This document shows positions 52,836 to 55,809 of a stretch of DNA of 64,000 bases, piece by piece. How positions within the stretch are numbered: position 1 is the stretch's first letter; the number at the start of each line of letters is the position of its first letter. The position numbers were made by a program, and so were the translations under genes. The notes under the pieces are model-generated. The model was not told the origin of the DNA and did no database searches. It saw only the letters and a program-made list of their open reading frames with translations. The stretch is from an uncultured Fidelibacterota bacterium (GTDB taxonomy: Bacteria > Fidelibacterota > Marinisomatia > Marinisomatales > Marinisomataceae), in the NCBI GenBank assembly GCA_902629855.1, contig CACOSI010000002.1, positions 69,501 through 133,500 of the forward strand. Direction: 5' to 3'.

Positions 52836-54941
52836 ATGAATATTAAAAAATTAGAAATTTTTGGCTTTAAATCTTTTGCTAAAAAAGAGACAGTTCTTTT
52901 AGATAGTGGAATTACTGGGATTGTTGGTCCTAACGGTTGTGGAAAAACTAATATAGTTGATGCAATTAGATGGGTTCTTGGTGAACAAAAAACATCAAGA
53001 TTAAGAAGTTCTAAAATGGAAGATGTTATTTTTAATGGAGCCTCAAATATTAAACCATTAGGGCTTTGTGAAGTTTTTTTAACTATTGAAAATACTAAAG
53101 GTCTTTTACCTACTGAATTTTCAGAAGTTGAAATAGGAAGACGTCTTTATAGATCTGGAGAAAGTGAATATTTTATTAATAGAAATGCTTGCAGATTAAA
53201 AGATATATCGAATCTTTTTATTGATACAGGACTTACTTCAGATGCTTATTCAGTAATTGAATTGAATATGATTGACCAGATTCTTTCTGACAAAGACGAC
53301 AGTAGAAGAAATATGTTTGAGGAAGCCGCTGGTGTAAATAAATATAAATCTAAAAGAAAATCAACTATCAAAAAATTTGAACTTAATCTTAGGGATCTTG
53401 AAAGAATTGATGACATTATTGTAGAAATTGATTTTCAAGTTAAAGCCTTAGATCTTCAACTTAAACGTTTTAAAAGACATGAAAAACTTTCAAAAGAAAT
53501 TCAAGAACTTGAAATTAAGCTAGCTTCTGCAAGAATTAAAGATTTAGACATAACAATAGAACCTTTAGAAATTCTTCTCAAAGAAAAAAATAAACTTTTA
53601 AAAAAAAATACCTCTAAGAAAAAAGTTAATAGTGTTGAGTTCGATAATGCTCGAGAAAAATATTTAAATGAAAAAGATTCGTTATCAAAATTAAAGTCTA
53701 AGGTAGATTTGCTTACAGAAAATCTTTTAAAGGAAATTCAAGAAAAAAATATTCAATCATCTCAGGGTGTAGGAATACTTGAAGATGAACTTCAAAAAAA
53801 GATTTCTGAATTGAATAAGTTTGATAAAAATTACATTAATATTGTTACTAAAAGTGATGTATTTAAAAGCCTATCAACACAAAGTAGAGAAAACTTTCAA
53901 AATAAAAATTATACCGTAATTGAAACTGACAAAAAATATGAAAATCTAAAAGCAAGTATCGAAGATTATAAAAATAAAATAGACTCTTACAAAAAAGAAA
54001 AAGAGTTTGATTTCTCAAAGATGGATAAATCTATTAAAGAAATTCAAGAGCAAATCAATAAAAACAATATTGAGTTGGAAAAAAAAGAAAATGATGTCAA
54101 CAAGTTATTTGTTAAAATGGAATCCATAAGAGCAAAATTAGATTCAGAAAACTTTAGTAAAGATGATTTATTCTATGAAATCAAGAATGCTGAAATGAAA
54201 ATTGCTGAATCAAAACTTAAAAAATCTCAAATCAATCAAAATTTAGTTGAGAAATATGGAAGTAAAGTAAAATTATTAGATATTAAAGATTATGACATTA
54301 GCGATATGGTTTATAGGATTGAAAAAATTAAAAGAAGTATTGAAAATATAGGCCCTATAAATTGGGCTGTTAAAGATGAGTTTGAAGAAAAAAATAATCG
54401 TTTAACAACATTAAAAGAACAAAAGTCAGATTTGATTGAAGCTGAAAATAATCTCAAGGAAGCAATTAAGAAGATTGATAGAGTAGCAAAAAAACAGTTT
54501 AGTGAAACATTTGAAAGTGTAAAGAAAAATTTTGAGAAGATGTTTACAGTTTTCTTTAGTGGAGGTAGTGGTTCATTAAAGTTAACAGATGATAATGATC
54601 CTCTTAATTCAGACATCAAAATTCTTGCACAGCCTCCTGGAAAAAGAAATAATTCTTTAAAAATGTTATCTGCTGGAGAAAAATCTTTAACTGCAATAGC
54701 TCTTCTATTTTCAATATATCAGTATAAGCCGAGTCCTTTTTGTATTTTAGACGAAATTGATGCTCCTTTAGATGACATAAACATTAAAAAATTCACAGAT
54801 GTTATTAAAGAATACAGTAAATCTACCCAATTTATTATGGTTACTCATAATAAGCTCACAATGGAGTCTGCTGATTGTATTTATGGTGTCACAGCAGAAA
54901 AAAAGGGTATTTCTAAGCTAATGTCTATTGATTTTTCATAA
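52836..54941 (+). CDS. smc: Chromosome segregation SMC ATPase, unusually short (701 aa)
   Basis: N-head LEIFGFKSFAKKE, GPNGCGKTNIVDAIRWVLGEQ; C-head LSAGEKSLTAIALLFSIY, FCILDEIDAPLDD; no visible hinge. Confidence 0.93.
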   Translation: MNIKKLEIFGFKSFAKKETVLLDSGITGIVGPNGCGKTNIVDAIRWVLGEQKTSRLRSSKMEDVIFNGASNIKPLGLCEVFLTIENTKGLLPTEFSEVEIGRRLYRSGESEYFINRNACRLKDISNLFIDTGLTSDAYSVIELNMIDQILSDKDDSRRNMFEEAAGVNKYKSKRKSTIKKFELNLRDLERIDDIIVEIDFQVKALDLQLKRFKRHEKLSKEIQELEIKLASARIKDLDITIEPLEILLKEKNKLLKKNTSKKKVNSVEFDNAREKYLNEKDSLSKLKSKVDLLTENLLKEIQEKNIQSSQGVGILEDELQKKISELNKFDKNYINIVTKSDVFKSLSTQSRENFQNKNYTVIETDKKYENLKASIEDYKNKIDSYKKEKEFDFSKMDKSIKEIQEQINKNNIELEKKENDVNKLFVKMESIRAKLDSENFSKDDLFYEIKNAEMKIAESKLKKSQINQNLVEKYGSKVKLLDIKDYDISDMVYRIEKIKRSIENIGPINWAVKDEFEEKNNRLTTLKEQKSDLIEAENNLKEAIKKIDRVAKKQFSETFESVKKNFEKMFTVFFSGGSGSLKLTDDNDPLNSDIKILAQPPGKRNNSLKMLSAGEKSLTAIALLFSIYQYKPSPFCILDEIDAPLDDINIKKFTDVIKEYSKSTQFIMVTHNKLTMESADCIYGVTAEKKGISKLMSIDFS

Positions 54942-55017: not shown

Positions 55018-55809
55018 ATGGCAACTAAAATAAGATTAAAAAGAATTGGTAGACGAAATAGACCTTTTTATAGAGTTATAATAATTGATTCACGAAAAAG
55101 AAGAGATGGCTCTGCTATTGAGCAAGTTGGTTGGTACAATCCAATTGAAAAAGATAAAGAAAAAAATTATAGTCTTAAAGAAGATCGTATTCTTGAATGG
55201 CTGAAGCTCGGTGCCCAGGTATCAGATCCAGTAAATAAATTGATGAAAAGATCCGGACTGGCATATAGATGGCATTTAATAGGCCAAGGTTTATCAGATG
55301 CAGATATTGATAAAGCAGTTAGTGAATGGAAAAAGAATCGCGATAAAGTTATTAAAGATAGAATCAAAGCAAGTTTAGCAAAAAAGGAAGAAGCAAAAGC
55401 AAAGAAAGCTGCAGCAAAGTTAGCTGAGGAAGCTCCAGCTGAAGAAGTAAAAGAAGAAGCACCAGCTGAAGAAGCAAAAGAAGAAGCTCCAGCTGAAGAA
55501 GTAAAAGAAGAAGCACCAGCTGAAGAAGTAAAAGAAGAAGCTCCTGCTGAAGAAGCAAAAGAAGAAGCTCCTGCTGAAGAAGCACCTGCTGAAGAAGTAA
55601 AAGAAGAAGCACCAGTTGAAGAAGCTCCTGCTGAAGAAGCAAAAGAAGAAGCTCCTGCTGAAGAAGCTCCTGTCGAAGAAGTAAAAGAAGAAGCACCAGC
55701 TGAAGAAGTAAAAGAAGAAGCACCAGCTGAAGAAGCAAAAGAAGAAGCTCCTGCTGAAGAAGCACCTGCTGAAGAAGCAAAAGAAGAAGCTCCTGCTGAA
55801 ACTAAATAA
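55018..55809 (+). CDS. rpsP: 30S ribosomal protein S16 with long Ala/Glu/Pro-rich C-terminal extension
   Basis: ATKIRLKRIGRRNRPFYRVIIIDSRKRRDGSAIEQVGWYNP; 263 aa total. Confidence 0.97.
   Translation: MATKIRLKRIGRRNRPFYRVIIIDSRKRRDGSAIEQVGWYNPIEKDKEKNYSLKEDRILEWLKLGAQVSDPVNKLMKRSGLAYRWHLIGQGLSDADIDKAVSEWKKNRDKVIKDRIKASLAKKEEAKAKKAAAKLAEEAPAEEVKEEAPAEEAKEEAPAEEVKEEAPAEEVKEEAPAEEAKEEAPAEEAPAEEVKEEAPVEEAPAEEAKEEAPAEEAPVEEVKEEAPAEEVKEEAPAEEAKEEAPAEEAPAEEAKEEAPAETK
55423..55803 (+). repeat. Tandem repeats encoding EEVKEEAPA/EEAKEEAPA in rpsP
   Basis: 27-nt (9-aa) degenerate repeats, with shorter EEAPA units. Confidence 0.95.

Follow-up and report, generated by a model that had tools for sequence, protein, structure and literature searches.

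A protein of 701 amino acids encoded in the stretch of DNA that was analyzed (64,000 nucleotides from an uncultured marine bacterium, referred to here as the window) is a true bacterial SMC protein from which the hinge is missing, together with the hinge-distal half of each arm. To our knowledge, the hinge is regarded as universal in SMC motors, and whether it matters by its fold, by DNA binding, or merely by dimerization is debated. The hinge-less form is fixed in a genus of Candidatus Marinimicrobia/Neomarinimicrobiota (SAR406), most members of which carry CxxC motifs in a short loop at the site of the hinge.

A bacterial SMC protein without a hinge

When the sequence was re-read, the smc open reading frame was unbroken and contained all of the motifs quoted in an earlier note that had been made from the sequence alone, with ∼337 residues between EEAAG (residues 162 to 166) and NIGPIN (residues 504 to 509) rather than the ∼330 given there. 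In Pfam searches both halves of the protein matched SMC_N, in two pieces (1.6e-60), and other P-loop families were also matched, but the hinge family, PF06470, gave no match at E ≤ 1. The SMC-type ATPase head expected of a bacterial Smc-ScpAB protein was recognized by the curated NCBIfam model TIGR02168 (SMC_prok_B) with 717 bits, compared to a cut-off of 567. In a genome-wide profile search the alignment to this model covered positions 2 to 386 and 907 to 1180 only, and thus ∼520 positions in the middle of the model (387 to 906) are absent.

Table 1 Features of the hinge-less smc gene, in window coordinates
Feature	Residues	Window position	Strand	Basis
smc, hinge-less SMC protein, 701 aa		52836..54941	+	ORF, Pfam, TIGR02168
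ATPase head, N-terminal half, ending with EEAAG	1-166	52836..53333	+	Pfam, alignment, model
Walker A, GPNGCGKT	31-38	52926..52949	+	Invariant in 30 aligned SMCs
N-terminal arm helix, collinear with head-proximal arm of full-length SMCs	167-338	53334..53849	+	Model, profile alignment
Apex loop at hinge site, without cysteine in the window protein and with one or two CxxC in relatives	339-361	53850..53918	+	Alignment, model
C-terminal return arm, without indels across the genus	362-503	53919..54344	+	Model, profile alignment
NIGPIN neck and ATPase head, C-terminal half	504-701	54345..54938	+	Pfam, alignment, model
ABC signature, LSAGEKS	611-617	54666..54686	+	Alignment
Walker B/D-loop, FCILDEIDAPLDD	635-647	54738..54776	+	Alignment

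Profile alignment placed residues 169 to 334 of the N-terminal arm on positions 170 to 344 of full-length SMCs and residues 406 to 510 of the C-terminal arm on positions 873 to 977. As judged from this alignment, it is the head-proximal arms that were kept and the hinge, together with the hinge-distal half of each arm, that was lost. The N-terminal arm, at ∼170 aa, falls short of the ∼300 aa or more of bacterial SMC proteins. The tentative suggestion that SSQGVGILEDEL is a remnant of the pre-hinge segment found no support: the arm up to approximately residue 334 maps onto head-proximal positions 170 to 344, the pre-hinge motif is at approximately 497 to 504, and the segment from ∼296 to 350, searched alone, gave no pre-hinge match in the profile alignment.

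The monomer was modeled with AlphaFold2, as the earlier note had proposed. The model (mean pLDDT, 73.6) consisted of a single helix from residue 168 to 338, a low-confidence apex (339 to 361), and return helices from residue 362. Its best match in the PDB with Foldseek was 5xei, which comprises an SMC head, coiled coil, and joint, and the top matches were SMC heads with arm and joint. In 20 complete sequences from the genus there was not a single indel in either arm, and length varied only in the apex and in the last two columns. Smc arms are reported to tolerate certain lengths only, with natural modes of 238, 341, and 515 aa and a possible minor mode of 163 aa (PMC5344682), and the indel-free arms of the genus agree with that restriction.

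The gene for ribosomal protein S16 is also in the window (55018-55809); its product has a tail of EEAPAEE/AKEEAPAEE repeats that is well over 100 residues long, and a similar repeat tail is present in S16 of a relative, G001.

Distribution of the short form and its partners

The genus was sampled with 24 genomes, which also constitute the entire family as sampled. Comparison of orthologue lengths, proposed in the earlier note, revealed the short SMC in 23 of these genomes (the window genome and 22 others), and all of the complete copies were 687 to 709 aa. Two further copies were incomplete, apparently at contig ends, and the smc of G001 (L115, G001:C2), whose apex has one CxxC, was broken by frameshifts in its draft MAG. 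One genome, which is 72% complete, had no SMC match. PF06470 was above the cut-off in none of the 24 genus genomes versus 12 of 17 genomes from the same order. In a scan of 149 genomes across the phylum, complete-looking SMC frames outside the genus were ∼1169 to 1239 aa and shorter frames matched one end of the protein only, as expected for fragments; other named Marinimicrobia SMCs were 1166 to 1173 aa. Every complete SMC seen outside the genus thus has the full length, and the loss of the hinge appears to be specific to this Marinimicrobia lineage. The genomes of the genus are small (∼0.8 to 1.0 Mb for those at least 90% complete, versus 1.2 to 4.7 Mb in the rest of the scan).

Two genomes from family f13 of the order, G035 and G140, had no convincing smc, which might reflect a draft gap or loss; G035 has scpA and scpB.

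The window genome is a draft of 925,868 bases in 19 contigs (87.8% complete), and the 701-aa protein was its only SMC match at E ≤ 10. Domain searches, comparison across the genus, and the full length of relatives wherever a complete copy was seen in the rest of the phylum all support the earlier claims that the hinge is missing and the arms are shortened; none of the findings that the note had listed against them (a PF06470 match, full-length SMCs in close relatives with assembly breakpoints, or a second smc) emerged. A split gene with its hinge encoded elsewhere was considered and rejected, since PF06470 gave nothing above the cut-off in the genus. A phage origin was likewise rejected, viral contigs having no relatives of the 701-aa SMC.

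The search for scpA and scpB was positive: the two genes are adjacent in the window genome (G000:C7:23627-24771). ScpA, ScpB, and ParB were each above the cut-off in 21 of the 24 genus genomes, so that the kleisin and the kite protein of an Smc-ScpAB complex occur in the window genome and in most of the genus. ParB was not found in the window genome, an incomplete draft.

The apex of the shortened arms

Alignment of the apex distinguished three states within the genus. State A, with two CxxC motifs (for example, SCDACDSGLNLEVSCSKCGK) at residues 340 to 343 and 353 to 356, was found in seven genomes, the two most divergent among them; state B, with one CxxC (ECDECGKN or ECDDCGK), in another seven; and state C, without cysteine (SDVFKSLSTQSRENFQNKNYT in the window genome), in nine. 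The apical CxxC characteristic of the Rad50 hook is thus absent from the window protein and present, once or twice, in 14 of 23 genus genomes. The arms contained no other cysteine in the genus alignment. When a state A protein was modeled, two beta strands (347 to 352 and 359 to 365) were placed around the CxxC knuckles in a zinc ribbon-like, low-confidence arrangement; in this model, as in that of the window protein, confidence along the arms was lowest at the apex (pLDDT below 50). The two-CxxC apex had a weak match to DZR (E 0.036, under the cut-off). The CxxC apex of the relatives probably binds zinc, and the two-CxxC loop, as a zinc ribbon or hook, is probably the ancestral form. A zinc held by cysteines cannot join the apex of the window protein, because state C has none.

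PF04423, the Rad50 zinc hook, gave no match at E ≤ 5 in four relatives with CxxC. The hook-like apex therefore more likely represents convergence with Rad50 than descent from its hook. SbcC of the same genomes was considered as a donor of the hook and rejected, because profile searches of the genus and of sampled members of the order returned no SbcC above the cut-off.

Six changes among the four labels (full length and states A, B, and C) are needed on a tree from which the apex was excluded. G002 (L014) has a state C apex within a clade of state A genes. Its apex columns (341 to 380) had 73 to 90% nucleotide identity to state C genes versus 31 to 80% to its sisters, whereas the flanks of the same smc were closer to the sisters than to state C genes and its upstream genes clustered with the same state A sisters. 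Because the apex disagrees in affinity with the flanks and upstream genes, these comparisons point to local recombination as the route by which the Cys-free apex came into G002. The ratio dN/dS in the apex was 0.01 to 0.06 in most same-state pairs, with a value of 0.22 in one close pair, and was 0.046 in the state C pair L002 versus L006. Such low values indicate that in most same-state comparisons the apex loop is under purifying selection, the Cys-free state included.

All 14 of the genus genomes read, including the window genome (G000:C4:118498-118611, L170), encode a zinc-free (C-) ribosomal protein L36, compared to the CxxC zinc form in nine sampled relatives from the order. This suggests a genus-wide zinc economy, a possible driver of the loss of cysteines from the apex.

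Proposed function and alternative explanations

The explanation that we favor, and consider reasonably likely, is that the protein acts as the only SMC in a miniaturized Smc-ScpAB condensin in which a short hook, zinc based ancestrally and zinc free in the window species, closes the apex. The ancestor of the genus would have lost ∼520 residues, namely the hinge itself and the hinge-distal half of each arm, after which a short apical loop, probably a two-CxxC zinc ribbon or hook, would have joined the two arm helices. Some species would then have cut the loop to a single CxxC, resembling the Rad50 hook, and others, including the window species, to a conserved Cys-free loop. By analogy with the Rad50 hook, this apical loop most likely links the arm of one SMC to that of another; for the Cys-free loop of the window species such dimerization is a conjecture. 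The heads, bridging by ScpA and ScpB, and ATP-driven translocation of DNA would presumably operate as in ordinary Smc-ScpAB, around a lumen of approximately half the length. The suggestion in the earlier note that dimerization would need another solution gains indirect backing from the CxxC motifs of the relatives, which sit exactly at the apex. Counting against this explanation, the apex of the window species is free of cysteine and modeled with low confidence, the CxxC relatives do not match PF04423, and the functional short constructs in an arm-shortening screen of Bacillus subtilis Smc had arms of 253 to 267 aa (PMC5344682), longer than the ∼170-aa arms found here.

A broader proposal is plausible but more tentative: that a hinge was naturally exchanged for a zinc ribbon or hook, convergent with Rad50, in a working condensin of a streamlined marine lineage that kept ScpAB and ParB, and that zinc-free versions later moved between species by local recombination.

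The main rival, which we regard as unlikely but deserving of attention, dispenses with the apical dimer. Monomers would be joined by ScpA and ScpB and by ATP-dependent engagement of the heads, perhaps with the arms side by side, and the apex would be a mere hairpin turn. The Cys-free, poorly predicted apex of the window species, the repeated shifts in apex cysteine content within the genus, and the retention of ScpAB are all compatible with this possibility. However, a mere turn is difficult to reconcile with the strong purifying selection on most apices compared within a state, Cys-free ones included, or with the paired CxxC motifs placed exactly at the apex of the most divergent members, and characterized SMC-kleisin motors dimerize at the apex.

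It is less probable still that the apex is mainly a zinc ribbon for binding or sensing DNA, standing in for the DNA contact of the hinge rather than dimerizing. SMC hinges contact DNA as well, and the ribbon-like two-CxxC apex, with its weak DZR match, could hold one zinc in one chain. Yet this short loop is not strongly basic, and the one-CxxC state lacks a complete four-cysteine site within one chain, which suggests an intermolecular site.

Assignment of the protein to the Rad50/SbcC, RecN, or archaeal ASRP type instead of the condensin SMCs, as the hook-like apex of the relatives and weak NCBIfam similarities to ASRP (55 bits) and Rad50 (52 bits) might suggest, is very improbable, because both scores are far under their cut-offs and far below that of TIGR02168, and because the genomes have ScpAB and no SbcC above the cut-off. 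A decaying or misassembled full-length gene, for which the draft state of the window genome and the frameshifts in G001 could be cited, can be dismissed: the same intact length recurs in many independent assemblies (including a 734-kb contig and, in named database records, AG- and AH-named isolates that we take from their names to be single-cell genomes), dN/dS is mostly below 0.1, and the arms are free of indels across the genus, which rules out an artifact or a pseudogene.

Relation to known systems

The protein shares with Smc-ScpAB proteins (TIGR02168) the head motifs, the neck, and the head-proximal arms, as well as ScpA, ScpB, and ParB in the genomes, but it has no hinge, arms of about half the length, and 687 to 709 aa in the genus compared to ∼1170 to 1200. 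The literature searched contained one earlier report of hinge-less SMCs, a cluster without CXXC from oceanic Actinobacteria (Sussfeld et al. 2025; PMC12153180). As in that cluster, the protein is marine, has no hinge, and is apparently the only SMC of the cell, and the window protein also lacks CxxC. By its description, the actinobacterial cluster differs in phylum and in lacking CXXC, which is present here in 14 of 23 genomes, and partners are identified here. Compared to that report, what appears to be new is the occurrence in a phylum other than Actinobacteria, with full-length relatives, retained partners, and a CxxC apex in most members.

B. subtilis Smc carrying the zinc hook of Pyrococcus furiosus Rad50 supports normal growth, and the fold of the hinge was judged irrelevant in that study (Burmann et al. 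2017; PMC5344682). Smc(Zh) resembles the CxxC relatives in having a small CxxC element in place of the hinge, and shortened arms were also tested, but it was engineered, whereas the form described here is natural, has shorter arms, and has a two-CxxC version that is probably ancestral. The converse exchange is also possible, in that the MukB hinge can substitute for the Rad50 hook (PMC6969161). Natural zinc-hook relatives of SMC are Rad50 and archaeal ASRP (PMC9389158), neither of which is an ScpAB-type SMC. Like the CxxC relatives, the Rad50/SbcC hook and archaeal ASRP/ClsN (PMC6969161, PMC9389158) have a CxxC at the tip of a coiled-coil hairpin of the SMC type. The proteins described here differ in that their heads are those of SMC, PF04423 is not matched, the apex also occurs in two-CxxC and Cys-free states, and the genomes encode ScpAB but no SbcC above the cut-off. 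The open-access literature searched contained no ScpAB-type SMC in which a zinc hook naturally replaces the hinge. The exchange of a hinge for a zinc-binding tip had previously been only engineered in the laboratory; in several relatives of the window protein, a tiny tip that probably binds zinc occupies the hinge site.

In this marine bacterial lineage, evolution has halved the arms and dropped the hinge while the rest of the complex was kept, which amounts to a natural minimal SMC. The series of two-CxxC, one-CxxC, and Cys-free forms built into the genus offers direct tests of the need for a hinge, for arm length, and for dimerization at the apex.
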